Shown here piece after piece: positions 6,567 through 21,668 of a stretch of DNA of 21,829 bases. The translations under genes and the position numbers were made by a program. Source of the stretch: a virus; IMG/VR virus record IMGVR_UViG_3300024430_000009, positions 1-21,829 of that record; one strand, given 5' to 3'. The stretch's first letter is position 1; each line of letters starts with the position of its first letter. The notes under the pieces are model-generated. The model saw only the letters and a list, made by a program, of their open reading frames with translations. It did not search any database and was not told where the DNA came from.

Positions 6567-6944
6567 TTGATCACGTTCAGCCATAGTGGCTCCTTCGGTA
6601 ACACGGAGCGCTTCCTCAAAAAGGCACAAAAGCTTGATGTTCGTCGGTATCTCGAACGCGAAGCCGAGAAAGGCCGTCAGGCTTTGATCAAAGCGACACC
6701 TCGAGACTCTGGTCTGGCAGCGGAATCTTGGGGTTACGAGATCCGTCAAAATAGGGCCGGTATCAGAATTATCTGGACCAATAACGATGTCGAGAACGGC
6801 TTTCAGGTTGCGATTGCTCTGCAATACGGCTATGGAACCGGCACCGGAGGTTATGTCCAAGGGCGTGATTACATCAATCCCGCAATGAAACCCGTGTTTG
6901 ACGCAATCGCCGAGAAGGTGTGGAGGGTGGTGAAGTCCGCATGA
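6567..6944 (+). CDS. HK97-gp10-like head-tail connector / neck protein
   Basis: A 125-aa protein with a TTG start, supported by AAAAGGAG ending five bases upstream; no other start in this frame is better placed. The pattern of a basic helical region (YLEREAEKGRQALIKATP), DSGLAAESWGYEI, a strand around IRIIWTN, then ALQYGYGTGTGGYVQGRDYI and a terminal helix is typical of the HK97 gp10-like family. Those proteins usually act in tail completion or neck assembly and are normally encoded before the major tail protein. Here it is directly before the tape measure, overlapping it in ATGA (6941-6944). The family call is fairly secure; the role in this phage is inferred. Confidence 0.72.
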   Translation: MITFSHSGSFGNTERFLKKAQKLDVRRYLEREAEKGRQALIKATPRDSGLAAESWGYEIRQNRAGIRIIWTNNDVENGFQVAIALQYGYGTGTGGYVQGRDYINPAMKPVFDAIAEKVWRVVKSA

Positions 6945-9900: not shown

Positions 9901-12544
9901 CAATGCCATGTTGTTGCTTGGCAATCTGGATGTTGGTCAGATCGCCAAGTCTATGGGTACGTTTAGCGGTGTAATGGCAGTTATCGTTGCTTCATTGAAG
10001 ATTCTGGGTAACAAGGATGCCACGCAGGGCGCAGCTTCGATTGCTATCGTCGCTGGTTCTATTCAGATGTTGGGTGGCATCCTTGCCGAGTGGGGCGCAA
10101 TGGATTACGAATCGCTTGGTAAGGGGCTTGGCACTCTTGCTGCGGTTCTGATCATCATGGCGCTTTCACTCAATCTGCTGAAGACCGAGGTTGCTGGTGC
10201 GGCGGCATTGGCGATCGTGGCTGGCGCACTTTCGCTGTTGGTGCCAGTGCTGGTTACGCTGGGTGCTATGCCAATCCTTGCGATTGGTGGCGCACTAGTG
10301 GCGCTCGCTGGCATGTTCCTTATCTTGACTCTCGGGTTGAGACTGCTTCAGCCGATGATTCCCACGCTTATGCTGTTGGCTATTGCCATCGGTTTGTTGG
10401 GTGTCGCGGTAGCACTTGCTGGTCTGGGCGTGTTGGCATTTGCCACGGGTCTTACGATTCTTGCTGCAGCCGGTGCTGCGGGTGCGGCATCGATCGTGGC
10501 GATCGTTTCTGCTCTGATCGGTCTTATTCCGATGGTTATGGAGCAGATCGGACTCGGTTTGGTTGCCTTTGCTCAGGTTATTGGTAACTCCGGAGCAGCA
10601 ATTACCGGAGCAATCACTACGATTCTGATGGCGATTCTTGATGCCATCATTCGAGTGACGCCAAAGATCGGGCAGACGCTTCTGGTTCTGCTGCAGACTC
10701 TTCTTCGGGTGCTGGTTAGCGGCATTCCGATGATGGTCGATGCAGGTATGAAGCTGATCATCGGTATTCTCGATGGCATTGCTCGAAACATCGGTCAGAT
10801 AGTTGACAAGGCAGCAGACGTTATCGTCAACTTTGTCAATGGCGTTTCGCGCAACCTGGGTCGAATCATTCAGGCTGGTGTCGATCTGATTATTTCCTTT
10901 ATGCAGGGTATCGGTGATGCCGCTCGCAACAACGGTGACAAACTCGCCGATGCTGCTTGGGACATGGCTACCGGCATTATCGAGGGTTTGGCTAACGGTC
11001 TGCTCAGTATGGCGGGTAACGTGCTTGACGCACTGATGGGCGTTATTGAGGGTGCTTGGGATTCCGCGCTGTCATTTCTCGGCATTTCTTCACCCTCGAA
11101 GAAGTTCATCCAGTTGGGTAAGTATGTCACTCAGGGTTTCGTTATTGGTCTTACGGGTGGCCGAAAGGACGTTCGCGAAGCTGTTGACACCATGTTCAGC
11201 AGCATGAATGCATCACTAGAAGACGCCAAGCAACGAGCTTCTGACACTCGACGGCAGCTCAAGGATCTCCAGCGGACCAAGCAGGATCTGGACCGCAAGT
11301 ATATTCAGGCACACGAAGATCTGAACAAGGCTCGAGCCAAGGGCGAAGACACCACCTCTGAAGAGCGTCGAGTTCAGGCGGCATATTCTGCGCTCAACAA
11401 GAACTGGGAAGCGCAGCAGAAGCTGAAGGCTTCGCTTGCCGAAACCGTAGCCGAGTACAACAAGGTCTACAAGGCTCGAGATGCTCTTGCCAATGGTATG
11501 AAGAAGGAGCGTCAAGCGCTCTGGAATCTGGGATATGAGTACGACAAGGTTACGGCTAAGCTCGATGCAGCAAACAAGAAGCTTGCCGATGCCAAGAAGG
11601 TTCGTGACGATTACAACAAGTCGATTCGGGAGCAGTACGGTAAGCAGGAAGATATTACCGGCGAAACCCGATTTGGCGATTACATCAAGAACCTTGAGAA
11701 GCAGATCATCGACACGCAGAACTACACGATTGCTCTCACTGAGCTTCGTAAGCGTGGTCTGAACGACGAAATTTACAAGGAGCTGCTTGCCAGCGGCACC
11801 GAGGCAATGCCATTCGTTCAGGAAGTTCTTGCCGGCGGTAAGGGTGCGGTTAATCAGCTCAACACCCTCGGTAAGGCGCTCGATCGAGATGCAGCTCGAC
11901 TTGGTGATCGGGCTTCTTCTGCTCTCTACCAGGCTGGCGTCGATGCCGCCGAGGGTCTGGTGAAGGGTTTGGAGAAGCAGCAGGCTGCCATTGAGAAGCG
12001 CATGGACAAGATCGCCGATTACATGGTCAACACTATCAAGAAGAAGCTCGGCATCAAGTCTCCTTCTCAGGTGTTTGCTGAGATCGGTAAGTTCACCGTT
12101 GAGGGCATGGCTCGAGGTCTGGACGACTCGGCTCCTTTGGTGAGTAGGTCTGCTGAGGGCGTTGGTCAGACGGCCATCGATACGATGAAGAAGACGATTT
12201 CAGGGCTGGGAACCCTGATCGAGGGCGATGTCGACATGAATCCGACTATTGCTCCGGTGTTGGATCTCAGCAATGTCCGCAAGGATGCTGCTGGAATCGG
12301 GGACATGCTGGCAACCAAGCCAATCTCGTTGGCTGCTGCATATTCCGGTGCTGCAGATGCATCTGCGGGTTACACCCGTAACCAGGCGGCTTATGCCGAG
12401 GCAGACGCAGTTCGAGGTGGCGACGTCTTGAACTTCACGCAGAACAACACCTCGCCCAAGGCTCTGTCCCGAGCCGAACTTTACCGTCAGACCAACAACC
12501 AACTATCCGTAGCGAAGGGAGCTCTGAAGAGAAATGCTCGTTAG
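6941..12544 (+). CDS. tape measure protein
   Basis: At 1867 aa this is by far the longest gene. It sets tail length and is carried in the tail lumen. I choose ATG at 6941, overlapping the preceding stop as ATGA with G-rich sequence upstream, over GTG at 6920. Residues about 60-240 resemble the tape-measure N-terminal domain (GSIQTILANTAKHG, YNFGDMTRNIGLFTNAGI, LSQGLSAGKITAQDWISLTN). Residues 676-1143 are eight hydrophobic repeats of about 59 residues. Two motifs of the type GI-x-SPS-xxF-xxx-GK (Gly1381 and Gly1704) flank a charged coiled-coil region. At about 0.15 nm per residue the tail would be near 280 nm, an inference. Hydrophobic segments may help membrane passage of DNA. Confidence 0.92.
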   Translation: MSDIDTRVVEMAFKNEKFKTGVTSTISALDKLKASLQLDGASKGLDNVNKAAGQFNDKPVTDGVNRITASFSAMQAMAFGAFASIGQRAVGMAERLVSSFTIDPVKAGFEEYELKMGSIQTILANTAKHGTTLETVNHELEVLNEYADQTIYNFGDMTRNIGLFTNAGIKVEDATSMIKGFSNAAAASGTNAEQAAHAAQQLSQGLSAGKITAQDWISLTNAGMGNKNMQEGLIGIAEAMGTFTGSGYTAAEANQNFKSTLEGGWVTSDVMSTYLRIMSGDMDDAAISALGLSDDMVKMLRQQATMGMESATKVRTFTQLMGTLRESVGSGWSESFAILFGDFNEATDLFTTLSNSIGGWLGKMSEHRNTMLQEFKDMGGRTKLIEGLTDAFWVLGAPLDRVGKAFRQVFPATTADQLYKITEAFANFMRDLLPSAETLDRLQRTFAGVFAILGIGWEVVKGIARFFFGLFAGIEEGDKGILKFTATIGDFLVGLHQAIKAGGGIQNFFDTLLNLVMKLINPIKDFGQVIGNVFAGLDLGDAGKGLGEFISAILSFGSASEEVAEDATSMKDKIQAVFDFLLNIGRKVANFVQPVSDAIINLFSGMDYDQVMQGLQTGLLGGLVLVIKQLGGVLGNFSLFAGGDDGPSFLDKMKEAMDGLTDTLSAMQANLKASALIKIAAAIGILAIGVVLLANIDAQGLIRATSALTVMFIQLGIAMAVLQTMGTIKSAIRLTIMAGAMILMATALLILAAAVKVLSSMSWEELRKGMLGTTLLLGVIIGMSKGLDKSKGAIIRSAFALIIMAAALRLLVNVLRVVGEMDFEVMRQGLIGVGAMLTGLAIFTRLAKMGPKAVGQAAAIVLLSLALRLLASVVERFGEMSLNELAKGFTGIALGLVIMAASLRLMPKGAKMLFAALAVGKVASALGLIALAFKAFKDISWDQIARGLVAITGSLAVVTGALKVMPKISIGQVIALLGLAFAIKEIVNAMLLLGNLDVGQIAKSMGTFSGVMAVIVASLKILGNKDATQGAASIAIVAGSIQMLGGILAEWGAMDYESLGKGLGTLAAVLIIMALSLNLLKTEVAGAAALAIVAGALSLLVPVLVTLGAMPILAIGGALVALAGMFLILTLGLRLLQPMIPTLMLLAIAIGLLGVAVALAGLGVLAFATGLTILAAAGAAGAASIVAIVSALIGLIPMVMEQIGLGLVAFAQVIGNSGAAITGAITTILMAILDAIIRVTPKIGQTLLVLLQTLLRVLVSGIPMMVDAGMKLIIGILDGIARNIGQIVDKAADVIVNFVNGVSRNLGRIIQAGVDLIISFMQGIGDAARNNGDKLADAAWDMATGIIEGLANGLLSMAGNVLDALMGVIEGAWDSALSFLGISSPSKKFIQLGKYVTQGFVIGLTGGRKDVREAVDTMFSSMNASLEDAKQRASDTRRQLKDLQRTKQDLDRKYIQAHEDLNKARAKGEDTTSEERRVQAAYSALNKNWEAQQKLKASLAETVAEYNKVYKARDALANGMKKERQALWNLGYEYDKVTAKLDAANKKLADAKKVRDDYNKSIREQYGKQEDITGETRFGDYIKNLEKQIIDTQNYTIALTELRKRGLNDEIYKELLASGTEAMPFVQEVLAGGKGAVNQLNTLGKALDRDAARLGDRASSALYQAGVDAAEGLVKGLEKQQAAIEKRMDKIADYMVNTIKKKLGIKSPSQVFAEIGKFTVEGMARGLDDSAPLVSRSAEGVGQTAIDTMKKTISGLGTLIEGDVDMNPTIAPVLDLSNVRKDAAGIGDMLATKPISLAAAYSGAADASAGYTRNQAAYAEADAVRGGDVLNFTQNNTSPKALSRAELYRQTNNQLSVAKGALKRNAR
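8966..10370 (+). repeat. eight tandem hydrophobic repeats of about 59 codons inside the tape measure gene
   Basis: Repeat units begin near residues 676, 731, 794, 854, 912, 971, 1030 and 1087 of the tape measure (period 55-63, mostly 57-60). Each has a hydrophobic helix, a short polar turn such as GEMSLNELAKGF, MSWEELRKGM or ISWDQIARGL, a second hydrophobic helix, then a Lys-rich link such as RLMPKGAK or KVMPKISI. The repeats are divergent at both protein and DNA level, so the duplication is old or under selection. Confidence 0.75.
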
Positions 12545-14790: not shown

Positions 14791-15768
14791 ATGGCGTTGC
14801 CTAGTGCACCGGGCGTACCTACCTTTTCCAGCCTGAGAGACACGTCCGTCACGGTTACCTGGGCGCCGCCGGCGAACGATGGCGGAAAGCCAATTCTCGA
14901 GTACACCGTATTCTGGAGTACCGATCCACCAAGACCTTCGGGTTCGGCTACTTCTGCTGACAATGTTCGAAACATCAGCGGACTCGCACCGAGTACTACG
15001 TATTACGTCTGGGTCGATGCGCGGAATGCTGATGGCTGGAGTCCGAACAGCCCGCTAGGTACGGTTCGGACATATTCCAACTGGACATTGCCCCGACCGC
15101 CAGCTCGGCCGGTACTGACGGTTCGTTCAAGTACGGAGATTGAGCTCGATTGGGGTGGCGACGGCGAGAGCTATGATCATCCCGTTGACGATCGAGAGTA
15201 CTGGGGAAGCAGCAATCAAACCCCCACCAATCGTCGAGATTATGCAGCCAACTATGTGTGGAGCGGTCTCACTCCTGGTAGGACGTACTACTTCTGGGCT
15301 CGAAAGCACACTCGAGTCGGCTGGTCGGACTACAGCTCGATGGCGAGCGCAACAACGTTCGACGTGCCGCCTGCACCAGATCCGCCGAGCATCTATGGTA
15401 TTGCACAAACCTTGGTCAAGGCGGGCTTTACCGATAACGGCAACGGTGGCACGGCGATCACCGATCGGCAAGTCGGCTACAGCAAGAGTACATCCGGCCC
15501 GATCACCTGGGTGGATTATCCGAATGCAAACATCACCATCTACGATCTCGATCCCGGAACACGATATTACTTCTGGTCTCGAGTGCGTAATTCCGTTGGC
15601 TGGAGTCCGAACTCCGGTCGAGTGCAGGCAGATACGATTGCTGGCGCCTACGTGCTGGTCGGTACTTCCTGGAAGAAAGCCGTGCCGTACGTAAAGGTCA
15701 ACGGCGTCTGGCGAGTAGCTCGTCCCTGGACCAAGATTGCAGGGGTGTGGAAGGAGAACTCGTCGTGA
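14791..15768 (+). CDS. minor tail protein with three fibronectin type III domains
   Basis: A 325-aa, mainly beta-strand protein. Three fibronectin type III domains can be followed at about 4-95, 100-195 and 197-285; their G strands are marked by the related sequences TYYVWVDARNADGWS, TYYFWARKHTRVGWS and RYYFWSRVRNSVGWS. The C-terminal 40 residues hold two short motifs of the type VNGVWRVARPW and IAGVWKE, common at the ends of actinophage tail proteins. Such proteins lie at or near the tail tip and may touch the cell envelope. The SD GGAG lies six bases before ATG. The stop overlaps the next start (GTGA at 15765-15768). Confidence 0.82.
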   Translation: MALPSAPGVPTFSSLRDTSVTVTWAPPANDGGKPILEYTVFWSTDPPRPSGSATSADNVRNISGLAPSTTYYVWVDARNADGWSPNSPLGTVRTYSNWTLPRPPARPVLTVRSSTEIELDWGGDGESYDHPVDDREYWGSSNQTPTNRRDYAANYVWSGLTPGRTYYFWARKHTRVGWSDYSSMASATTFDVPPAPDPPSIYGIAQTLVKAGFTDNGNGGTAITDRQVGYSKSTSGPITWVDYPNANITIYDLDPGTRYYFWSRVRNSVGWSPNSGRVQADTIAGAYVLVGTSWKKAVPYVKVNGVWRVARPWTKIAGVWKENSS

Positions 15769-16241
15769 CGCCGGCGCGGAAGATCTTTGTCCGCGAGCAT
15801 TTCTGGGGTATGCGTCCGTTCAAGCGGCACAGCTTGATTCTTATGGTGGCCGGAGTGTTCTACACGCTTACTGGCCTCACTTATATTTGGGCCAATCCGA
15901 CACTGAATCGTAAGATCGCGCTGCAGGTCGCGCTGAGCGTATATCCGATCGAGTTCTGGGGATCCATCTTCATTCTCGTTGGTCTGCTGGCGATCTTCTC
16001 TTCTCGCTGGCCGCCGGTTGCTGAAACGTGGGGCTATTCCGTTCTTGCCGGGCTTTCTGCTGGTTGGTCGGCTACGTACGCAGCGGGGGTGATATTTGGT
16101 AATTCGCCAATCAGCAATCTCACAGCAACGCTGCAATGGGGACTTCTGGCGTTTCTGTGGTTGACTATTCCGGGCTTGGTTAACCCGGACAAGACCGTAG
16201 TGGTGGTGATCAAAGACGATGACAAAAGAACAAATCTTTAG
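15765..16241 (+). CDS. four-helix membrane protein, possible lysis-module protein
   Basis: A 158-aa integral membrane protein starting at GTG 15765 (SD AAGGAGA seven bases upstream; stop of the previous gene overlaps as GTGA). An upstream GTG at 15747 is less well placed. Four hydrophobic segments are visible at about 25-46, 62-84, 93-116 and 125-146. The N-terminus is basic (ARKIFVREHFWGMRPFKRHS) and the C-terminus is charged (VIKDDDKRTNL), so both ends are probably cytoplasmic. It lies between tail-tip genes and a holin, which suggests a role in lysis or membrane control, such as a second holin-like or antiholin protein. I see no family motif that settles this. Confidence 0.6.
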   Translation: MTPARKIFVREHFWGMRPFKRHSLILMVAGVFYTLTGLTYIWANPTLNRKIALQVALSVYPIEFWGSIFILVGLLAIFSSRWPPVAETWGYSVLAGLSAGWSATYAAGVIFGNSPISNLTATLQWGLLAFLWLTIPGLVNPDKTVVVVIKDDDKRTNL

Positions 16242-16695
16242 TGCGATCATCGTTTCGATCATCGCGGGAAGTTTCTCTTGGTTGGCAGCAAGACAGGCGG
16301 CAAAAGCTCAGATGACCAATGTCTCCACCTCGTCGCGAGTCGAGATGGAGAAGCAGGCGTACGAACGAGCAAGAATGTACGACACTCAAACTATCGAACG
16401 TCAAAACAAACGAATCGAAGAACTCGAAGGCGAAGTCGAAGAACTCGAAGCAAAGATCGATAACCAGGACCAAGACATTCGTCAATTGCATTATGCCAAC
16501 AATCAGTTGCATCAAGACAATCAATTGGCTTTGGCTGACAATCGACGGCTTCGAGAAGAGATTGCGCAATTGAGAGTTCGGTTCACTCGTCTCGAACGAG
16601 GTTTGGAACCAGATTCGACTGAACCTATCCGTGTGCGGGAGACCGACACCAATCCTATGGGAGATTATCGCAATGGCAGAGAGCTCTCGTCCTAA
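16219..16695 (+). CDS. membrane-anchored coiled-coil protein, possible spanin-like lysis protein
   Basis: A 158-aa protein with one N-terminal membrane segment (about residues 6-24) and then a long, highly charged region. Heptad-like coiled coil runs from about 50 to 127 (ERQNKRIEELEGEVEELEAK, then repeating Gln/Asn/Leu-rich heptads). The last 30 residues are polar. This architecture resembles inner-membrane spanins or other envelope-spanning lysis proteins, but spanins are not well defined in mycolate-bearing hosts, so this is only a hypothesis. It overlaps the genes on both sides by 23 bases, which indicates translational coupling. A weak GGTGGTG precedes the ATG. A minor tail role cannot be excluded. 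Confidence 0.5.
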   Translation: MTKEQIFSAIIVSIIAGSFSWLAARQAAKAQMTNVSTSSRVEMEKQAYERARMYDTQTIERQNKRIEELEGEVEELEAKIDNQDQDIRQLHYANNQLHQDNQLALADNRRLREEIAQLRVRFTRLERGLEPDSTEPIRVRETDTNPMGDYRNGRELSS

Positions 16696-17053
16696 GACGC
16701 TTTTCACACATTCGATGTACGACAAGCTGAAGACCACTGCGTTGGTCGTGCTACCAACGATTGCTTCGGCCTACTTCGTATTCGGTACTATCTGGGGGCT
16801 TCCCAAGATCGAGGAAGTTCTCGGCAGTATCGCTGCGATCGAAGCGTTGCTGGGCGGTACGCTGAAAGCCAGCTCCAATAGGTACTATCGAACCGGTGCC
16901 AACTTCGACGGTGACGTGAACGTCTTCTCAGATGAAGATGGCGGTAAGCACGTCAAGATGGTTTTCAACGAGCCACCGGATGAGGTTGTCGATCAGCCGG
17001 GCAAGCACTCGATGGAGTTCAAGATCAATCATATGGAGAATTCGGAGTCATAG
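16673..17053 (+). CDS. holin, r1t-like
   Basis: A 126-aa protein starting at ATG 16673, nine bases after GGGAG. Residues 14-66 match the r1t-type holin pattern: SMYDKLKTTALVVLPTIASA, YFVFGTIWGLPKIEEVLGSI, then AIEALLGGTLKASSNRYY. Two membrane segments are likely, at about 21-40 and 45-65. Holins form pores in the cytoplasmic membrane and time lysis by releasing or activating the endolysin. The C-terminal half is unusual: a polar domain with GANFDGDVNVFSDEDGGKHV, about 55 residues long. No endolysin is present in the window, so the muralytic enzyme must be encoded elsewhere. This is the last gene before the promoter array. Confidence 0.78.
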   Translation: MAESSRPKTLFTHSMYDKLKTTALVVLPTIASAYFVFGTIWGLPKIEEVLGSIAAIEALLGGTLKASSNRYYRTGANFDGDVNVFSDEDGGKHVKMVFNEPPDEVVDQPGKHSMEFKINHMENSES

Positions 17054-17070: not shown

Positions 17071-17103
17071 TCGCAAGCTATACATGGGTCATAATGGAAT
17101 CCC
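17071..17103 (+). promoter_or_regulatory. array promoter element P1
   Basis: First of twelve elements with TCGC, seven bases, ACA, one base, GG, C or G, three bases, then TARTG at identical spacing; here the core ends CATAATGG. It lies before an SD (GAAAGGA) and the gene at 17123. No clear terminator separates it from the late operon. Upstream it carries TCAAAATGGGGG, a stretch shared only with P9. Confidence 0.72.
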
Positions 17104-17122
17104 CCTATCGAAAGGAACCGAT

Positions 17123-17407
17123 ATGACTCCCCAGAAGCCACTCGAGAAGACCGGCCTGGAGAAGATCATCGAAGACCTGCAGTCCGAAATGGCCAGCGTC
17201 AGTGGGGACTCCGACGAGTACGCCAAGATGGCGGACCAACTCATCAAGCTCATGCAGCTCAAGGCCGACCTCGGCCCGAAGCGCATCAGTGCAGACGTGA
17301 AGGCCACCATCCTCGCCAACCTCGCCGGAATCCTCATCATCGTCGGCCACGAAAGAACGCACATCGTGACTTCGAAAGCTGTCGGCTTTGTCCGAAAGCT
17401 CTTCTGA
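17123..17407 (+). CDS. cassette 1: small membrane-anchored protein, conserved in actinophages
   Basis: A 94-aa protein. I start at ATG 17123, eight bases after GAAAGG; an ATG at 17084 in the same frame lies inside the promoter element and is rejected. Residues 7-50 are helical and charged (EKIIEDLQSEMASVSGDSDE), followed by LGPKRISADVKATILANLAG. A hydrophobic segment at about 61-75 is followed by GHERTHIVTSKAVGFVRKLF. I recall similar proteins of unknown function (pattern KRIS-x-D, then ATILANLAGI and TSKAVGF) near the structural genes of other actinophages. No enzyme motif is visible. It is the first and apparently most conserved gene of the array. Confidence 0.78.
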   Translation: MTPQKPLEKTGLEKIIEDLQSEMASVSGDSDEYAKMADQLIKLMQLKADLGPKRISADVKATILANLAGILIIVGHERTHIVTSKAVGFVRKLF

Positions 17408-17440
17408 GAGACCATCGACCTGATGTAGCAGATCCCAAAA

Positions 17441-17490
17441 GCCAGAGGGCTTGTGAACCTAACCAGTTTACAAGCCCTCTGGCTTTCTGC
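17441..17490 (+). terminator. intrinsic terminator T1
   Basis: GCCAGAGGGCTTGT (17441-17454) pairs perfectly with ACAAGCCCTCTGGC (17470-17483), and a G-U pair plus three more pairs extend the stem to about 18 bp around a CTAACCA loop. TTTCTGC follows. It has the longest stem in the array and could also end read-through from the late structural operon. Confidence 0.82.
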
Positions 17491-17511
17491 ATGGGCTATA
17501 AAAAATTGCCT

Positions 17512-17544
17512 TCGCGGAGTTTACACGGCCCATAATGAGAACCC
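17512..17544 (+). promoter_or_regulatory. array promoter element P2
   Basis: The element matches the array motif with TCGC, ACA-C-GG-C and CATAATG at the invariant spacing. It ends in GAACCCC before the SD GAAAGGA of the gene at 17567. Confidence 0.72.
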
Positions 17545-17566
17545 CTCCCCTATGAAAGGAAAGACA

Positions 17567-17866
17567 ATGACCCAGTCTACTTACGCATGGATGGGCTCCC
17601 AGCTGCACCTCGTTCTCGAGGACGAGCTCGCTGCGGCTTACAACCGCGCACAAGACGCCTGGCTTCAGGCTCAGAAGAACCACCTGGAAAGGACCGGATC
17701 CCGTTGGGAGCCGTCCGAGCCCATTTGGATCGACTGGACCGAAACCGAGTCAAGTGCGTGGGACAAGATCGCCAAGCTCGTCAACCTCTTGATCGAGATC
17801 AACGGCGGGAGCCTTGCCATCATGCAAGAAGACTGCACCTCTGACTACCTCGTCAAGGTGGAGTGA
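17567..17866 (+). CDS. cassette 2: small acidic soluble protein
   Basis: A 99-aa protein of unknown function, the longest in a complete cassette. The ATG follows the SD GAAAGGA, and upstream in-frame codons overlap the promoter element, so a longer version is unlikely. No membrane segment is visible. It has several tryptophans (AWMGSQLHLVLEDELAAAYN, then EPIWIDWTETESSAWDKIAK) and is probably mostly helical. Codons end largely in G or C, which contrasts with the tail genes and suggests high expression. It is bounded by P2 and terminator T2 and so appears to be transcribed alone. Confidence 0.74.
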   Translation: MTQSTYAWMGSQLHLVLEDELAAAYNRAQDAWLQAQKNHLERTGSRWEPSEPIWIDWTETESSAWDKIAKLVNLLIEINGGSLAIMQEDCTSDYLVKVE

Positions 17867-17909
17867 TCCCAAAGCTAGAATCCCACAAGGATTCTAGTTT
17901 TTGCTCGCA
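17867..17909 (+). repeat. 43-bp terminator-promoter junction repeat, copy 1
   Basis: This stretch is identical to 18827-18869. It starts with TCCCAAAG, contains all of terminator T2 and ends with the first bases of P3 (TCGCA). Confidence 0.85.
17871..17902 (+). terminator. intrinsic terminator T2
   Basis: CTAGAATCC (17875-17883) pairs with GGATTCTAG (17889-17897) around CACAA, followed by TTTTT. Adenines before the stem can pair with the T-tract. Confidence 0.88.
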
Positions 17910-17937
17910 AGATCAACAAGGCGTATAGTGAAGACCC
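17905..17937 (+). promoter_or_regulatory. array promoter element P3
   Basis: The element matches the array motif with TATAGTG in the TARTG position, the only G variant. It starts two bases after the T-tract of T2 and precedes the SD GAAAGGA of the gene at 17957. Confidence 0.72.
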
Positions 17938-17956
17938 CACTACGAAAGGAAACACC

Positions 17957-18163
17957 ATGTTCTACCGATTCATCGGCAAGATGTTCTTCCTCTTCTGGAT
18001 CTGCCCCGCCCTTCGTCACTACGCTGGAATCGCTGTCACCAGCGCCTGCAAGCACCTGATCGAGGAGTGTGACAAGATGCAGAAGAAGATGGACATGGAG
18101 GCCCAGTTCGAGAAGAACAACACTCCCGAGTACTACCGGAACCTTCGCCGATCGCAGCACTAA
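17957..18163 (+). CDS. cassette 3: 68-aa membrane protein
   Basis: A 68-aa protein with an N-terminal hydrophobic, aromatic stretch (about residues 5-19, GKMFFLFWICPAL) that could anchor it in the membrane, then a charged helical tail (HLIEECDKMQKKMDMEAQFE). Three cysteines (residues 16, 31 and 38) could be functional. The ATG lies six bases after GAAAGGA, downstream of P3, and the stop is nine bases before the stem of T3. I recognise no family. Possible roles include exclusion of other phages or modulation of the host membrane, without direct evidence. Confidence 0.74.
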   Translation: MFYRFIGKMFFLFWICPALRHYAGIAVTSACKHLIEECDKMQKKMDMEAQFEKNNTPEYYRNLRRSQH

Positions 18164-18171
18164 GCTGCGAT

Positions 18172-18202
18172 ACCAGAATCCCTAACAGGGATTCTGGTTT
18201 TT
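18172..18202 (+). terminator. intrinsic terminator T3
   Basis: CCAGAATCCC (18173-18182) pairs with GGGATTCTGG (18188-18197) around TAACA, followed by TTTTT. Compared with T2, one T-A pair has become C-G on both arms, a compensated change. Confidence 0.87.
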
Positions 18203-18212
18203 GCTTTCAAGA

Positions 18213-18246
18213 TCGCAAGCTTTACAAGGCTCCTAATGAAAGGACC
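18213..18246 (+). promoter_or_regulatory. array promoter element P4
   Basis: The element matches the array motif with TCGC, TTTACA-A-GG-C and CCTAATG at standard spacing. The downstream segment (AAGGACC) is one base longer than in most copies. It drives the gene at 18271. Confidence 0.7.
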
Positions 18247-18270
18247 ATACCCCTCTACAAAGGAGTCACC

Positions 18271-18522
18271 ATGGACACCACCACCGACCTCGTCATCGTT
18301 GACGACTCGATCGACACCACCACGGACAACACCGAGGAAGGTTCGAACCCCGCCAAGGCCCTCGCCGGCGTCGCTGTACTCGCAGCTGTCGCCGCCGCTG
18401 GCTACTTCGGGTTCGGACGCTTCCTCGCCAAGCGCCAGCTGGAGAAGGAGATCGAGACCCGCAACGCCCTCAACGAGCAGATCGAGGTGATGAACGCCTG
18501 CGACATCCCCGCTGAGAAGTAA
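18271..18522 (+). CDS. cassette 4: single-span membrane protein with MDTTTD start
   Basis: An 83-aa protein. The N-terminal 28 residues are acidic and Thr-rich (MDTTTDLVIVDDSIDTTTDN). An Ala/Val/Gly-rich membrane segment follows at about 30-49, with a basic stretch after it and a charged helix (RQLEKEIETRNALNEQIEVM). The positive side suggests that the C-terminus is cytoplasmic and the acidic N-terminus is outside. The product at 21087-21350 shares the MDTTTD start and this layout, so the two are probably paralogues. The ATG follows AAAGGAG after five bases. The function is unknown. Confidence 0.76.
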   Translation: MDTTTDLVIVDDSIDTTTDNTEEGSNPAKALAGVAVLAAVAAAGYFGFGRFLAKRQLEKEIETRNALNEQIEVMNACDIPAEK

Positions 18523-18530
18523 GTCCCAAA

Positions 18531-18563
18531 AGCTAGAATCCCCAACAAGGATTCTAGTTTTTT
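18531..18563 (+). terminator. intrinsic terminator T4
   Basis: CTAGAATCC (18533-18541) pairs with GGATTCTAG (18549-18557) around CCAACAA, followed by six T. The stem is identical to T2, T5, T6 and T7; the loop is two bases longer than in T2. Confidence 0.88.
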
Positions 18564-18572
18564 GCTTCAAGA

Positions 18573-18605
18573 TCGCAAGATTTACAGGGCTAATAATGAA
18601 GACCC
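18573..18605 (+). promoter_or_regulatory. array promoter element P5
   Basis: The element matches the array motif with TCGC, TTTACA-G-GG-C and AATAATG. It shares CAAGATCGCAAG with P4 at its 5' end and precedes the gene at 18631. Confidence 0.72.
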
Positions 18606-18630
18606 TCACCCCTCTATTGAAGGACATATC

Positions 18631-18822
18631 ATGCAGTTCGCTGGTATCGAGAACCCCTTCGGCACCGCCGCTACCATCCCGGCCGCCATCCCGACTCAGT
18701 CGCGCACCCTCTACTACAAGGGCCTACGACTGAACCGGATGCCGGTTCAGATCAAGGCGCCGCGTGCACCGAAGCCGATCTCGCACACCGTCAAGAACTT
18801 CCTGCTGAACTACAACGGCTGA
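18631..18822 (+). CDS. cassette 5: 63-aa basic soluble protein
   Basis: A 63-aa protein. ATG 18631 is preceded by TGAAGGA; a longer frame from 18562 would start within terminator T4 and is rejected. The first 25 residues are hydrophobic but rich in Pro and Ala (FGTAATIPAAIPTQSRTLYY), not a clear membrane helix. The rest is basic (LRLNRMPVQIKAPRAPKPIS). It could bind nucleic acid, a protein partner or the inner membrane surface. I recognise no family. It is bounded by P5 and T5. Confidence 0.72.
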   Translation: MQFAGIENPFGTAATIPAAIPTQSRTLYYKGLRLNRMPVQIKAPRAPKPISHTVKNFLLNYNG

Positions 18823-18826
18823 GAAG

Positions 18827-18869
18827 TCCCAAAGCTAGAATCCCACAAGGATTCTAGTTTTTGCTCGCA
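18827..18869 (+). repeat. 43-bp terminator-promoter junction repeat, copy 2
   Basis: Identical to 17867-17909; it contains terminator T5 and the first bases of P6. The flanking genes differ completely. Confidence 0.85.
18831..18862 (+). terminator. intrinsic terminator T5
   Basis: CTAGAATCC (18835-18843) pairs with GGATTCTAG (18849-18857) around CACAA, followed by TTTTT. It is identical to T2. Confidence 0.88.
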
Positions 18870-18897
18870 GAATCAACATGGCTTCTAATGAGAACCC
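18865..18897 (+). promoter_or_regulatory. array promoter element P6
   Basis: The element matches the array motif with TCGC, ATCAACA-T-GG-C and TCTAATG. It begins two bases after the T-tract of T5 and precedes the gene at 18916. Confidence 0.72.
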
Positions 18898-18915
18898 TCT
18901 ATGAAAGGACCCGCC

Positions 18916-19140
18916 ATGTGCAACCCGACCATCGCTATCACCATCAACTCCGAGACTCTCCCCCTGATCCACAACAGCGGCTACGACTGGCCGACGACTG
19001 AAGACTTCAACAAGATTTTCATCATCGTCAACGCCCAGTCGAAGTTCGAAGTTTCAAAGATCATGACGCGGGAGGACGCTGAGAAGTTGTACGACCGCAA
19101 GCTGTCGGACCTGCTCAACTGGCAGTTCATCACGGACTGA
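18916..19140 (+). CDS. cassette 6: 74-aa soluble protein
   Basis: A 74-aa protein. I start at ATG 18916, five bases after GAAAGGA with a little extra pairing; an ATG at 18901 is part of the SD region. It looks like a small alpha/beta protein: a strand (TIAITINSETLPLI), the polar segment GYDWPTTEDFN, a second strand (KIFIIVNAQ) and a C-terminal helix (REDAEKLYDRKLSDLLNWQF). No membrane segment or catalytic motif is visible. Unlike most cassette products it should be cytosolic. The function is unknown. Confidence 0.73.
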   Translation: MCNPTIAITINSETLPLIHNSGYDWPTTEDFNKIFIIVNAQSKFEVSKIMTREDAEKLYDRKLSDLLNWQFITD

Positions 19141-19144
19141 CCTC

Positions 19145-19178
19145 AAAAAGCTAGAATCCCACAAGGATTCTAGTTTTT
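19145..19178 (+). terminator. intrinsic terminator T6
   Basis: CTAGAATCC (19151-19159) pairs with GGATTCTAG (19165-19173) around CACAA, followed by TTTTT. Five adenines upstream could make it work in both directions. Confidence 0.88.
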
Positions 19179-19180
19179 GC

Positions 19181-19213
19181 TCGCAGGATTTACAGGGCAT
19201 GTAATGAAGACCC
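19181..19213 (+). promoter_or_regulatory. array promoter element P7
   Basis: The element matches the array motif with TCGC, TTTACA-G-GG-C and TGTAATG. It follows T6 by two bases and precedes the gene at 19235. Confidence 0.72.
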
Positions 19214-19234
19214 ACACCCCCGAAAGGAAACATC

Positions 19235-19468
19235 ATGTTCAACTACATCATCGCTGTCGTTGCCTCCATGCTCACCTTCGGCATCTCCAAGTACTTCGAA
19301 AACCGGAAGACCCGTAACCTCACCAAGGCCCACCAGGCCGAGATGAGGGAGCAGTTCGACCGCGTCTTCGTCGGCACCTGGAAGGCCGGACTTGACGCTG
19401 GACGCACCCAGGCGTACCAGAACACCACCTCCTACCAGGAGTGGCTCGCCGAGCGCAATCTCGTCTAA
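19235..19468 (+). CDS. cassette 7: 77-aa membrane-anchored protein
   Basis: A 77-aa protein with an N-terminal membrane anchor at about residues 3-18 (NYIIAVVASMLTFGI), then a basic patch (KYFENRKTRNLTKAHQ) and a charged, probably helical cytoplasmic part with WKAGLDAGRTQAYQN. The positive charge after the anchor places the C-terminus in the cytoplasm. The ATG lies seven bases after GAAAGGA. No family is recognised. The single anchor plus a short helical domain resembles regulators of membrane enzymes, but that is only an analogy. Confidence 0.75.
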   Translation: MFNYIIAVVASMLTFGISKYFENRKTRNLTKAHQAEMREQFDRVFVGTWKAGLDAGRTQAYQNTTSYQEWLAERNLV

Positions 19469-19473
19469 CTTGC

Positions 19474-19507
19474 AAACTAGAATCCCCAACAAGGATTCTA
19501 GTTTTTT
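19474..19507 (+). terminator. intrinsic terminator T7
   Basis: CTAGAATCC (19477-19485) pairs with GGATTCTAG (19493-19501) around CCAACAA, followed by six T. The stem is the same as in T4. Confidence 0.88.
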
Positions 19508-19512
19508 GCCTT

Positions 19513-19545
19513 TCGCGAGGATTACATGGGTCATAATGAAACGCC
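19513..19545 (+). promoter_or_regulatory. array promoter element P8
   Basis: The element matches the array motif with TCGC, ATTACA-T-GG-G and CATAATG. It precedes the 32-aa gene at 19566. Confidence 0.72.
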
Positions 19546-19565
19546 CCTCTATCGAAAGGACCATC

Positions 19566-19664
19566 ATGTCCAAGCACCGCCAGAAGCGCGAGAACCCCAT
19601 CATCGACGCGATCACCTTGATCGTCTCGTTGCCGTTCTTCGCCATCATGTCGATCTTCGACTGA
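19566..19664 (+). CDS. cassette 8: 32-aa membrane microprotein
   Basis: The smallest cassette gene. The ATG is six bases after GAAAGGA, downstream of P8 and followed by terminator T8, so its reality rests on the same signals as its neighbours. The product has a basic N-terminus (MSKHRQKREN) and one hydrophobic segment of about 19 residues (IIDAITLIVSLPFFAIMSIF), ending in Asp. The N-terminus should be cytoplasmic. Phage membrane microproteins of this size include exclusion proteins, lysis regulators and inhibitors of host enzymes; nothing here decides among these. Confidence 0.7.
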   Translation: MSKHRQKRENPIIDAITLIVSLPFFAIMSIFD

Positions 19665-19684
19665 CATCCTCGCTAGACCGTTCC

Positions 19685-19717
19685 AAGCCTAGAGCCCCAC
19701 AAGGGCTTTAGGTTTTT
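19685..19717 (+). terminator. intrinsic terminator T8
   Basis: CCTAGAGCCC (19688-19697) pairs with GGGCTTTAGG (19703-19712) around CACAA with one G-U pair, followed by TTTTT. This is a second stem class, shared with T9. Confidence 0.86.
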
Positions 19718-19736
19718 CCCGTCAAAATGGGGGCTT

Positions 19737-19768
19737 TCGCAAGTAAAACACGGCCTTTAATGAGACCC
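19737..19768 (+). promoter_or_regulatory. array promoter element P9
   Basis: The element matches the array motif with TCGC, AAAACA-C-GG-C and TTTAATG. TCAAAATGGGGG upstream is shared with P1. It precedes the gene at 19789. Confidence 0.72.
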
Positions 19769-19786
19769 ACTATGAAAGGACTACCG
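19748..19786 (+). repeat. 39-bp promoter-leader repeat, copy 1
   Basis: Identical to 20029-20067. It covers the 3' half of P9 and the whole leader with SD, ending three bases before ATG. Confidence 0.9.
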
Positions 19787-19788
19787 TC

Positions 19789-19980
19789 ATGCAGTTCCTC
19801 CGCGTCGTTGCTCTGGACATCATCACCGAAATCCGATTCCGTTGGATCCTCTTCCTCAACCGCAAGCTCATCCGAGAGCTGAAGCGCTTGAGCAAGCAGG
19901 ACCCGAAGCTTCTGATCACGTTGAAGATGTCAGCCAGCAATCCGCGCAAGATCGACTACGACATGAACTACCTCGACTAG
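19789..19980 (+). CDS. cassette 9: 63-aa basic protein, possibly membrane-associated
   Basis: A 63-aa, strongly basic protein. Residues 2-24 (QFLRVVALDIITEIRFRWIL) mix hydrophobic and charged residues and look more like an amphipathic surface helix than a full membrane span. The rest has RKLIRELKRLSKQDPKLLIT and ends in YDMNYLD. Start: ATG nine bases after GAAAGGA, with a leader identical to that of the next cassette. No family is recognised. Binding to membrane lipid or nucleic acid would fit the composition. Confidence 0.73.
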   Translation: MQFLRVVALDIITEIRFRWILFLNRKLIRELKRLSKQDPKLLITLKMSASNPRKIDYDMNYLD

Positions 19981-19985
19981 GTTTC

Positions 19986-20018
19986 AAGCCTAGAGCCCCC
20001 ACAAGGGCTTTAGGTTTT
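19986..20018 (+). terminator. intrinsic terminator T9
   Basis: CCTAGAGCCC (19989-19998) pairs with GGGCTTTAGG (20005-20014) around CCACAA with one G-U pair, followed by TTTT. The last T is also the first base of P10, so terminator and promoter touch. Confidence 0.85.
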
Positions 20019-20049
20019 CGCACGTTATACACGGCCTTTAATGAGACCC
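20018..20049 (+). promoter_or_regulatory. array promoter element P10
   Basis: The element matches the array motif with TCGC, TATACA-C-GG-C and TTTAATG. From ACACGG onward it is identical to P9. It precedes the gene at 20070. Confidence 0.72.
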
Positions 20050-20067
20050 ACTATGAAAGGACTACCG
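20029..20067 (+). repeat. 39-bp promoter-leader repeat, copy 2
   Basis: Identical to 19748-19786, although the genes that follow are unrelated. Confidence 0.9.
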
Positions 20068-20069
20068 CT

Positions 20070-20294
20070 ATGCTCGGTAATCGTGCCATCTCCGTCCAGC
20101 TGACCAAACAGCCGAAGAAGGACGGCTCCACCGACGCTGTCGAGTGCACTCACAGAACTCCTGAAGAGATCAACAAGATCATTCAGGACAATGCGACGCA
20201 CTTCGCCAAGCTCGCTGGGACCGTCTACCTGACGCACCGCATCGTGTCGACTGTCTGCGAGATCGCGATCATCGCCGCCAAGAAGAAGCTCTGA
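20070..20294 (+). CDS. cassette 10: 74-aa protein with C-terminal hydrophobic segment
   Basis: A 74-aa protein. I start at ATG 20070, nine bases after GAAAGG; a longer in-frame extension upstream runs through the previous gene and terminator and is rejected. The N-terminal half is polar and basic (QLTKQPKKDGSTDAVECTHR), then a helix PEEINKIIQDNATHFAKLAG. A moderately hydrophobic segment at about 47-70 (YLTHRIVSTVCEIAIIAA) ends in KKKL, as in a tail-anchored protein. Two cysteines are present. No family is recognised. The polar half may act in the cytoplasm on a host target. Confidence 0.72.
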   Translation: MLGNRAISVQLTKQPKKDGSTDAVECTHRTPEEINKIIQDNATHFAKLAGTVYLTHRIVSTVCEIAIIAAKKKL

Positions 20295-20304
20295 GTAGTG
20301 TCCC

Positions 20305-20335
20305 AAGCCAGAATCCCACAAGGATTCTGGTTTTT
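20305..20335 (+). terminator. intrinsic terminator T10
   Basis: CCAGAATCC (20308-20316) pairs with GGATTCTGG (20322-20330) around CACAA, followed by TTTTT. It carries the same compensated C-G pair as T3 and T11. Confidence 0.88.
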
Positions 20336-20374
20336 CTATTCCAAAAATTCCCCGGGGGAGTACTCATGAAAACC

Positions 20375-20407
20375 TCGCAAGATCAACATGGGTTCTAATG
20401 AAGACCC
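20375..20407 (+). promoter_or_regulatory. array promoter element P11
   Basis: The element matches the array motif with TCGC, ATCAACA-T-GG-G and TCTAATG. Unlike other copies it is separated from its upstream terminator by about 40 bases that include the palindrome CCCCGGGG and an SD-like GGGGGAG. It precedes the gene at 20430. Confidence 0.72.
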
Positions 20408-20429
20408 AACCCCTATTCAAGGAGATATC

Positions 20430-20621
20430 ATGAACAACGTCATCGAGAAGGCTACTGCCTCCACCAAGAAGTTCGTCGTCAAGCACAAGACCAAGCTCGC
20501 TGTAGCCGCCACCGCAACCGTTGCGCTGGTGCTGCACACGCAGGTCGTGAGCCAGCACAACGACTTCCTGGAGAAGCACGGCCTCATGGACGAGTTCTAC
20601 CACCTCGACGAAGAAGACTGA
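20430..20621 (+). CDS. cassette 11: 63-aa single-span membrane protein
   Basis: A 63-aa protein. ATG 20430 follows CAAGGAG after six bases; an in-frame ATG at 20388 lies in the promoter element and is rejected. The N-terminus is basic (KATASTKKFVVKHKTK), followed by an Ala/Val-rich membrane segment at about 23-40 and an acidic C-terminus (HGLMDEFYHLDEED). By the positive-inside rule the N-terminus is cytoplasmic and the acidic tail outside. The function is unknown. Confidence 0.75.
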   Translation: MNNVIEKATASTKKFVVKHKTKLAVAATATVALVLHTQVVSQHNDFLEKHGLMDEFYHLDEED

Positions 20622-20626
20622 GTCCA

Positions 20627-20657
20627 ACGCCAGAATCCACACGGATTCTGGTTTTTT
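20627..20657 (+). terminator. intrinsic terminator T11
   Basis: CCAGAATCC (20630-20638) pairs with GGATTCTGG (20643-20651) around ACAC, followed by six T. The next gene's SD starts only six bases after the T-tract. Confidence 0.86.
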
Positions 20658-20674
20658 CTATGAAAAGGATGCAC

Positions 20675-21031
20675 ATGCCTAACGACGCAGTGATTTACAA
20701 GCAGGTCTATCTTCTTGACCCGGAGAAGATTGATCAAACCTTCGAAGTTCCTCTTGATGCTCGACTTATTGCTATCGATTGGGATACTCGCGTTTATCTG
20801 GGTATCGCATTCTGGTACACCTTCCGAGTGCCAGAAGATACGAAGAAGCCGACTAAGCCGTACGGCGAGATGGTGGCAGTGCCGATGTCTCTTACCTGGC
20901 GGATTACTATCCGAGGAACTGGCGCATCATATCCATACGGGATGACACATCTTGGCACTGTAGTTCGTGACCATTATGCCTGGCATCTGCTTGACATGGA
21001 TGGAAACAATATTCGCTGGGCGAATCGATAA
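20675..21031 (+). CDS. conserved phage protein without its own array promoter (possible DUF7352-like)
   Basis: A 118-aa protein. I start at ATG 20675, five bases after AAAAGGA, rather than ATG 20660 inside the end of T11. The pattern VYLLDPEKIDQTFEVPLDAR, then a beta-rich core with AFWYTFRVPED, RITIRGTGASYPYGMTHLGT and YAWHLLDMDGNN, recalls a small beta family common in actinophages (I recall DUF7352: residues ending in a GTG-x-H and W-H-L signature). It differs from all the cassettes: no element in front, no terminator behind, and codons such as GAT, CTT and CGA like the tail genes. It is probably read by transcription passing T11, or from a promoter I cannot see. The function is unknown. 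Confidence 0.75.
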   Translation: MPNDAVIYKQVYLLDPEKIDQTFEVPLDARLIAIDWDTRVYLGIAFWYTFRVPEDTKKPTKPYGEMVAVPMSLTWRITIRGTGASYPYGMTHLGTVVRDHYAWHLLDMDGNNIRWANR

Positions 21032-21032
21032 T

Positions 21033-21066
21033 TCGCAAAAATTACAGGGCACATAATGAAGATCCC
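21033..21066 (+). promoter_or_regulatory. array promoter element P12
   Basis: The element matches the array motif with TCGC, AATTACA-G-GG-C and CATAATG. It starts two bases after the stop of the preceding gene, with no terminator between, and precedes the gene at 21087. Confidence 0.72.
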
Positions 21067-21086
21067 CCTCTATTAAGGAGCCCACT

Positions 21087-21350
21087 ATGGACACCACCAC
21101 TGACATCCCCGCCACCGACCTCGTTGTCGTCGAAGCGGAGATCGTGGAGGACGACCCCAGCGGCTTCGGGAGCGAGATCGCCAAGAACGCTGGAGTCAGC
21201 GCCGCCACTGCTGGCGTCGTTGTCCTCGGCATCGTGGCGTTCAAGTACCTGAAGCCTCGCGTCGTCTCCCTGATCGCCCGCAAGAAGACCGAGACCCCGG
21301 TCGCGGAGCCCGTGGAGGTCACCCCCGAGGAGACCCCCAAGCAGGACTGA
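21087..21350 (+). CDS. cassette 12: single-span membrane protein with MDTTTD start
   Basis: An 87-aa protein with an acidic N-terminus (MDTTTDIPATDLVVVEAEIV), a membrane segment at about 36-52 (VSAATAGVVVLGIVAFKYL), a basic stretch (SLIARKKTE) and an acidic Pro/Glu-rich C-terminus (PVAEPVEVTPEETPKQD). The start and layout match the cassette 4 product, which suggests gene duplication within the array with divergent tails. The ATG follows TAAGGAG after seven bases. The predicted orientation is N-terminus outside and C-terminus in the cytoplasm. No family is recognised. Confidence 0.76.
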   Translation: MDTTTDIPATDLVVVEAEIVEDDPSGFGSEIAKNAGVSAATAGVVVLGIVAFKYLKPRVVSLIARKKTETPVAEPVEVTPEETPKQD

Positions 21351-21355
21351 TCCGA

Positions 21356-21390
21356 AAGCCTAAATACCCTAACACGGTATTTAGGTTTTT
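21356..21390 (+). terminator. intrinsic terminator T12
   Basis: CCTAAATACC (21359-21368) pairs with GGTATTTAGG (21376-21385) around CTAACAC, followed by TTTTT. The stem sequence is unlike the others. It ends the cassette array. Confidence 0.86.
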
Positions 21391-21416
21391 CTTTTTCGAT
21401 TCATATAGGAGGAGTT

Positions 21417-21668
21417 ATGGGAAAGAAGGGCCAACCAGGCAAGCAGTACGAGGTCAGCATGGAGCTTGCACAGACGCTCAAGCATGAGTACAACGCTGGA
21501 GGCACTCTTACCACGTTGTCGACCAAGCACAAGCTGGCCAAAGCTACCGTCGCTCGAAACATCCGGCGAGCCGGTGGCACCATTCGACCTGTCGGTCAGC
21601 GCAAGGTGCAGACTGGACTTCTAGGCTGGCTGAACACGACGCCTAGTTACATCGGAGAGGATGAATGA
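21417..21668 (+). CDS. helix-turn-helix DNA-binding protein
   Basis: An 83-aa protein starting at ATG 21417, four bases after AGGAGG. Residues about 14-60 form a helix-turn-helix of the Hin/transposase-resolvase kind: LAQTLKHEYNAGGTLTTLST, then HKLAKATVARNIRRAGGTIR. The flanks are basic at the N-terminus (MGKKGQPGKQ) and polar at the C-terminus, with no catalytic domain, so a transcription regulator or DNA-bending protein is likely. It begins a new operon after terminator T12; no array element precedes it, and its promoter is not evident. Its position beside the array makes it a candidate regulator of that array, which is speculative. Confidence 0.72.
   Translation: MGKKGQPGKQYEVSMELAQTLKHEYNAGGTLTTLSTKHKLAKATVARNIRRAGGTIRPVGQRKVQTGLLGWLNTTPSYIGEDE

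Follow-up and report, generated by a model that had tools for sequence, protein, structure and literature searches.

Introduction

Small genes, many of them putatively encoding membrane proteins, lie downstream of the tail genes in phages of clusters AM and AU, with similar arrays in phages Pepy6 and Poco6 (Klyczek et al. 2017; PMC5513430), and the small-gene array was described again for clusters CC, AM, AW, AU and DJ (PMC13313380). In the Gordonia phages Vardy (PMC9671010) and Conley (PMC10868162), five copies of an intergenic motif of 50 or 43 bases have been reported, and its TATAAT was read as a sigma-70 -10 box; the Vardy report also describes terminators and 13 genes with a possible membrane segment or signal peptide (PMC9671010). 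Here, we describe such an array in a 21,829-base virus fragment of a soil phage (IMG/VR record IMGVR_UViG_3300024430_000009; this whole stretch is referred to as the window), where twelve one-gene cassettes, each behind its own copy of a promoter-like element, occupy positions 17071–21392. The array as such is already known; what is new concerns the polymerase that would read its promoter. We think it probable that the cassettes are a co-regulated set read by a phage two-barrel RNA polymerase (family PHROG 4291) rather than by host sigma-A, yielding a burst of small host-directed proteins.

By blast against phage records, the window belongs to a related group with the hosts Streptomyces, Gordonia, Arthrobacter, Rhodococcus, Microbacterium and Curtobacterium. 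Kinship with Pepy6 and Poco6 had been suggested in an earlier note made from the sequence of this stretch, and their array does lie at the same genome place. Like the array described here, the Pepy6/Poco6, AM/AU and DJ arrays stand after the tail genes and before the primase-polymerase, carry the TATAAT motif and small membrane proteins, and include homologues of gene 1 and of other cassette genes. In contrast to those arrays, nearly every unit here is one gene with its own terminator, there are 12 promoters in 4.3 kb compared with the 5 reported for Vardy, and the -10 box is less strict at -12/-11.

In Thermus phage P23-45, conserved motifs lying upstream of genes of the phage have been assigned to its polymerases gp96/gp64, and the motif of its virion RNA polymerase (vRNAP) is absent from relatives that do not have that enzyme (PMC10770324). 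According to the account given in PMC10770324, gp66 of the crAss-like phage phi14:2 is a two-barrel single-chain phage RNA polymerase. For YonO of SPbeta, the promoter sequence was unknown in the paper describing it, and the targets are one late operon (PMC5467207). In the open-access literature, we found no paper tying the array motif to a polymerase and no match for the literal motif string.

Results

The array promoter is bipartite and has no -35 signal

An element of about 36 nt occurs twelve times in the window, always on the + strand (starting at 17071, 17512, 17905, 18213, 18573, 18865, 19181, 19513, 19737, 20018, 20375 and 21033). Its layout is TCGCA-N4-WWACA-N5-TATAATGA: an upstream half-site, a second half-site, and a TATAAT-like box followed by GA. 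A weight matrix whose only training data were 53 sites in five relatives recovered exactly these twelve copies (17.1–37.7 bits) and no other site in the window; 100 dinucleotide shuffles of the window gave a mean of 0.02 hits above 6 bits, the best scoring 17.0. Across six phages there are 69 copies of the motif, all on the + strand and nearly all in the central array. The spacing is exact to the base, with ACA starting 8 nt before TATA at 8–14 sites in most contigs (4 in contig G026), and other ACA–TATA distances are mostly represented by 0–2 sites, except those due to the upstream half-site.

The published interpretation of the motif in Vardy and Conley (PMC9671010, PMC10868162) leads to an alternative in which the cassettes have host sigma-70/sigma-A promoters. 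TATAAT would then be the -10 box, TCGCA/TTACA would be an activator site replacing the -35, and the host would transcribe the genes early or delayed-early. Most relatives do have a perfect TATAAT, the exact sigma-70 -10 consensus, and the intrinsic-type terminators with T-tracts suit host RNA polymerase. However, TTGACA matches at a spacing of 16–18 nt are no better than random, both in the window (2.17 vs 2.38) and in the relatives (2.04 vs 2.37), and none of the 12 window copies has a TTGACA-like hexamer with at least four matches at this spacing. A generic sigma-70 scan showed no excess of sites and found none of the 12 copies; it misses the array promoters because they have no -35.

The box itself also departs from the host pattern. 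An A at -11 is essential for sigma-70. In the window the box reads NNTAAT: only six of the 12 copies have A at -11 and six have T at -12, but all 12 have T at -7, in a numbering (-12 to -7) that assumes the usual place of the -10 box, start sites being predicted only. The window copies as a set thus lack the A-11 plus T-7 pair of a sigma-70/sigma-A -10 box, which is present in most relatives. The same relaxation is seen in L024/L030, L031 and L033, whereas most relatives keep TATAAT. Judged by these features of its sequence, the array promoter is not an ordinary sigma-70 promoter.

Two further observations concern the genes behind the promoter in relatives. The annotated starts of Pepy6 gp044 and gp040 (L009, positions 16229 and 14885) overlap the promoter; in gp044 the ATG is part of TATAATG. 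Some Pepy6 cassette genes have therefore probably been deposited with incorrect 5' ends. The same promoter also stands directly 5' of tRNA or tRNA-like genes in L083 (reverse strand, about 11689), L084 (about 11759), L086 (about 3832) and L009 (17207), so cassettes do not serve proteins alone.

A predicted two-barrel polymerase accompanies the motif

Pepy6 gp106 is annotated as an RNA-dependent RNA polymerase (RdRP), and its homologues in Petito and RavenPuff as helix-turn-helix (HTH) proteins. All three match PHROG 4291 over their whole length. The polymerase keeps SGADFDGD, with ADYDGD also found among 30 aligned members (motif SGAD[FY]DGD), and has tandem N-terminal HTHs, matching Sigma70_r4 in one member (5e-7), and one C-terminal HTH. 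The Pfam RdRP match falls below the cut-off of that family. When an AlphaFold model of Pepy6 gp106 (pLDDT 74, pTM 0.51) was used in a fold search of the PDB, the best matches were RDR2 polymerases (E 2.5e-4, with probability 1.00, and E 6.3e-4), followed by weaker matches to cellular beta' chains. A sequence-profile search of the PDB returned HTH and designed-repeat matches only and was uninformative. Going by the model, the PHROG 4291 member is predicted to have a two-barrel single-chain RNA polymerase fold.

The family has in common with YonO, phi14:2 gp66 and the P23-45 enzymes a DxDGD-type catalytic motif and an RdRP/QDE-1-like fold. It differs from them as a separate sequence family with built-in tandem HTHs, a putative activity, and a bipartite motif with a sigma-70-like TATAAT. 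Unlike the single operon of YonO, its array targets would be many one-gene cassettes. Some homologues carry other names: those of the saliva phages (L060 20513–23173 and L061 32331–34976) appear in their records as 'tail fiber protein' and 'putative transcription factor D5', homologues in many SEA-PHAGES records are labelled HTH DNA-binding proteins, and an unverified note in the Pepy6 record calls the homologue in Lactococcus phage 1706 a structural protein.

Among sequences of 38 kb or longer, the polymerase is present in all 10 IMG/VR relatives of a first set and in 24 of the 26 contigs that were chosen by the motif alone. The association extends to phage 1706 (33% GC, Firmicute host), which has polymerase gp75 and, at the corresponding genome position, small genes preceded by the same motif; its shuffled genome gave 0.05 motif hits. 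Polymerase and motif were also found together in two saliva phage records and seven IMG/VR contigs (35–49% GC). Since host phylum and base composition differ among these phages and the polymerase is common to them, the motif appears to follow the phage polymerase and not the host. Fremauxvirus 1706 and its relatives thus resemble the phage described here in motif layout 5' of small genes, in genome place and in a homologous polymerase. They differ in being AT-rich, in having a Firmicute host, and in their TATAGTAGA box and CRCA half-site. No sequence match to the window cassette proteins was found in 1706.

A weaker copy of the motif is located 0.95–1.2 kb upstream of the polymerase gene in approximately nine sequences. 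This suggests that the polymerase may amplify its own operon by feedback. Such copies were seen at about 22594 in L039 (Pepy6 72593) and in L043, L046, L055 and L067, and lie 5' of VRR-Nuc/Cas4/polymerase genes in annotated phages.

Half-site changes go with changes in the second HTH of the polymerase

We compared 30 polymerases, the half-site being known for part of the phages. A C at half-site position 2 goes with an ESxVR-type recognition helix in the second N-terminal HTH (HTH2), with the variants ESTFR in Hazu and EPSVR in Egad. Contigs G027 and G028 have VTTVS/VSTVS in HTH2 and the half-site TTACA, and contigs G029 and G031 have VTKIN and CTACA/TTTCA. Where ESxVR is lost, the CG of the half-site reads TA or TT, and this is seen in two separate lineages. 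In the polymerase tree, G027/G028 group with G025 (support 99/94), and G029/G031 group with 1706 and D_HF5_2C (100/99 for the wider group). As the two T-type groups fall in different clades, the half-site change happened twice. We considered AT-richness as the cause of the TA half-site and rejected it, as 1706, P1046, D_HF5_2C and G026 (33–38% GC) keep C at position 2. Of the sequence evidence for direct reading of the element by the polymerase, the covariation of HTH2 and half-site is the strongest.

This covariation also counts against the host-promoter alternative. So do the spacing, fixed to a single base across all phages, and the use of one element both in phages with Firmicute hosts and in phages with actinobacterial hosts, which have the phage polymerase in common. 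Together with the absent -35 signal and the A missing from -11 in 6 of 12 window copies, these observations lead us to regard transcription from host sigma-70/sigma-A promoters as unlikely.

Organization of the array

The array is on the same strand as the tail genes and downstream of them: a tape measure gene (6920–12544), then Dit and minor tail genes up to 15768, three small genes, and the array. The same order is found in L009–L013. The earlier note had proposed twelve head-to-tail units with a shared promoter-like element, each holding a gene of 32–99 codons with a Shine-Dalgarno (SD) sequence and a terminator, with a gene at 20675 breaking the rhythm. The matrix search agrees with the first point, with 12 of 12 copies found and none elsewhere. 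A check of each cassette agrees with the second, as a single gene of 32–99 codons with a purine-rich SD stands behind each promoter copy, the distance from the -10 box to ATG being 26–33 nt across the 12 cassettes. A hairpin stands 3' of all 12 cassette genes. Eleven of the hairpins have a T-tract and near-identical stems (GCTAGAATCC...GGATTCTAGTTTTT), while the hairpin after gene 1 (17426–17498) is longer than the others and T-tract poor. In total, 20 terminator-like sites were found in the window versus 5.6 expected. The features of the array, in order, are as follows.

17071–17106, +: promoter copy 1 (TCGCA-N4-ATACA-N5-CATAATGG)
17123–17407, +: cassette gene 1, 94 aa, membrane segment, conserved first cassette, phrog_5818
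17426–17498, +: long hairpin after gene 1, poor T-tract
17512–17547, +: promoter copy 2
17567–17866, +: cassette gene 2, 99 aa, phrog_26203
17871–17902, +: terminator 2
17905–17940, +: promoter copy 3
17957–18163, +: cassette gene 3, 68 aa, borderline membrane segment
18172–18203, +: terminator 3
18213–18248, +: promoter copy 4
18271–18522, +: cassette gene 4, 83 aa, membrane segment, N-terminus in common with gene 12
18528–18563, +: terminator 4
18573–18608, +: promoter copy 5
18631–18822, +: cassette gene 5, 63 aa
18831–18862, +: terminator 5
18865–18900, +: promoter copy 6
18916–19140, +: cassette gene 6, 74 aa
19146–19178, +: terminator 6
19181–19216, +: promoter copy 7
19235–19468, +: cassette gene 7, 77 aa, borderline N-terminal membrane segment
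19474–19507, +: terminator 7
19513–19548, +: promoter copy 8
19566–19664, +: cassette gene 8, 32 aa, membrane segment
19685–19718, +: terminator 8
19737–19772, +: promoter copy 9
19789–19980, +: cassette gene 9, 63 aa, basic
19986–20019, +: terminator 9, running into promoter 10
20018–20053, +: promoter copy 10
20070–20294, +: cassette gene 10, 74 aa, phrog_6618 (weak)
20305–20335, +: terminator 10
20375–20410, +: promoter copy 11
20430–20621, +: cassette gene 11, 63 aa, membrane segment, phrog_12653
20629–20658, +: terminator 11
20675–21031, +: gene x, 118 aa, DUF7352 (PF24043), no array promoter, ordinary codons
21033–21068, +: promoter copy 12
21087–21350, +: cassette gene 12, 87 aa, membrane segment, paralogue-like to gene 4
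21354–21392, +: terminator 12, array end

Gene x does interrupt the series, having no array-type promoter and ordinary codon usage. It is probably a foreign insertion between terminator 11 and promoter 12, and, since it stands behind terminator 11 with no array promoter, its expression must depend on read-through. An Rfam search of the array found no RNA family, and a tRNA search of the window found none.

Three genes before the array (15747–17053) look lysis-related: one membrane/minor-tail-like, one coiled-coil and weakly spanin-like, and one Dp-1-type holin. The last of them (16673–17053) is holin-like (PF16938, 6.6e-13). Directly 3' of the array, 21417–21668 encodes a small protein that looks HTH-like by eye and has no family match.

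Cassette genes are strongly codon-biased and turn over rapidly

Membrane calls were made by hydropathy only, a clear segment being a Kyte-Doolittle 19-mer score of at least 1.6. By this measure, 5 of the 12 products (genes 1, 4, 8, 11 and 12) have a clear segment and three or four more are borderline (genes 3, 7, 10 and 2), giving up to nine possible. The earlier note's count of seven or more membrane products is therefore plausible, with five of them clear and the rest borderline. Among the cassette proteins and gene x, the only Pfam match above cut-off was DUF7352, for gene x.

The cassette genes prefer C over T in NNY codons. The ratio NNC/(NNC+NNT) is 0.84–1.00 in all 12 (median 0.98), compared to 0.83 and 0.85 for the major capsid and tail genes, a median of 0.56 for long open reading frames (p = 1.4e-5), and 0.44 for gene x. 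We read this strong bias as selection for very strong translation. In relatives, the bias is significant in Pepy6, Circum, Count and G008, and marginal in Petito, Hazu, contig89 and Egad.

Conservation is uneven. Homologues of gene 1 occur in 32 loci, including Pepy6, and in those annotated relatives that were examined it occupies the first cassette position; gene 11 has homologues in 9 loci, gene 10 in 6 and gene 2 in 3, and the other eight cassette genes and gene x have none among the loci compared. Genes 4 and 12 have an N-terminal MDTTTD-type stretch in common and look, from their sequences, like a duplicated pair. At three places, the terminator-promoter junctions are 87–89% identical over 71 nt and would offer a ready route for cassette exchange. 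These homologue counts, junctions and paired genes support the modular gain and loss proposed in the earlier note. Its other suggestion, independent dosage for each gene, is not supported as the purpose of separate promoters, as all twelve share one promoter type; this points instead to a co-regulated set.

The near-identical 71-nt junctions, the paralogue-like genes 4 and 12 and the rapid turnover could also mean that the repeats are mainly recombination sites for gene shuffling, with promoter activity secondary or lost. However, the conserved positions are promoter-like, fixed in strand and 26–33 nt from the ATG, the element is kept between phages with unrelated cassettes, and the codon bias indicates high expression. 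We consider this explanation highly improbable.

Another alternative, compatible with either polymerase, is that the array is a superinfection-exclusion or membrane-defence island, in which small membrane proteins block later phages and the cassettes serve swapping. It would account for the membrane segments, of which five are clear and up to nine possible, for the fast turnover of most cassettes, and for the position of the array next to lysis-like genes (holin-like 16673–17053). On the other hand, several products look soluble (genes 5 and 6), searches of the cassette proteins against Pfam and PHROGs gave no match to known exclusion families, and relatives also have tRNA-like genes behind the same promoters, which means that membrane products do not make up the whole set. 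As an account of the array, we judge it quite unlikely; a membrane-directed exclusion function, as one candidate, is a reasonable guess.

Discussion

Several observations weigh against transcription of the cassettes by the PHROG 4291 polymerase. The window fragment does not include the polymerase gene, which lies outside the 21.8 kb, and its presence is deduced from relatives. Motif and polymerase are both lineage markers, so their co-occurrence alone is confounded by descent, and the motif-bearing contigs G036 and G044 show no polymerase, perhaps as fragments. The exact sigma-70 consensus box of most relatives, published as such for Gordonia phages, points to the host enzyme. The structural model is of middling quality (pLDDT 74, pTM 0.51) and its TM-scores to RDR2 are low. 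The covariation amounts to only two independent events, both in AT-rich phages, and the tree program flags the joining of 1706 with G029/G031 as one between long branches whose placement is unsure; the clades holding the two TA-type groups are still separated with high support. Finally, the AT-rich phages show no raised codon bias, and in some other phages it is no more than marginal.

On balance, we favor a general picture in which a phage supergroup spanning hosts in the Actinobacteria and Firmicutes uses a two-barrel single-chain polymerase with tandem HTHs to read a dedicated bipartite promoter, in which two NNNCA half-sites spaced by 9 nt are combined with TATAATGA, and so runs arrays of one-gene cassettes, with HTH2 and half-site having co-evolved at least twice. 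The sequences show the anatomy of the array, the motif with its geometry, its presence alongside the polymerase gene in relatives, the half-site change that goes with the HTH2 helix, and the codon bias. From these we infer that the polymerase initiates at these sites, as well as the timing of transcription and the host-directed function of the products. The polymerase, possibly brought in with the virion, would bind both half-sites, its second N-terminal HTH contacting the upstream one, melt TATAAT, and transcribe each cassette into a short mRNA ending at the hairpin. Very strong translation of these mRNAs would produce a burst of small, largely membrane-associated proteins. The cassettes would turn over fast by recombination at the near-identical terminator-promoter junctions, gene 1 alone being stable.

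By analogy to SPO1 (PMC6873191), the products may act on the host envelope or physiology, in host take-over or exclusion. The SPO1 host take-over module is a block of 26 small genes with the promoters and ribosome sites of highly expressed genes (PMC6873191). Both systems combine small genes with strong expression signals, here a promoter and SD per gene and a codon bias at least equal to that of the major capsid gene. The SPO1 genes form operons at the genome ends, whereas here there is one gene per predicted transcript, the array is at the genome centre, and membrane segments are many.

Approximately 250 sequenced phage records carry the polymerase, usually annotated as an HTH protein or an RNA-dependent RNA polymerase and with no known job. 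If the proposed link is true, it would provide PHROG 4291 with its promoter, the rule by which that promoter is recognized and its target genes all at once. The motif would predict phage-read genes from sequence and correct the sigma-70 reading, and the promoter choice of YonO-type enzymes, left open in the YonO work, would become directly testable. It would also offer a self-contained polymerase-promoter pair, expected to function in Gram-positive hosts of high as well as low GC. Many tiny, strongly expressed, fast-evolving proteins would be marked as the first candidates for host take-over or exclusion, and the link would explain how a large group of phages turns on the small proteins that it directs at its hosts.

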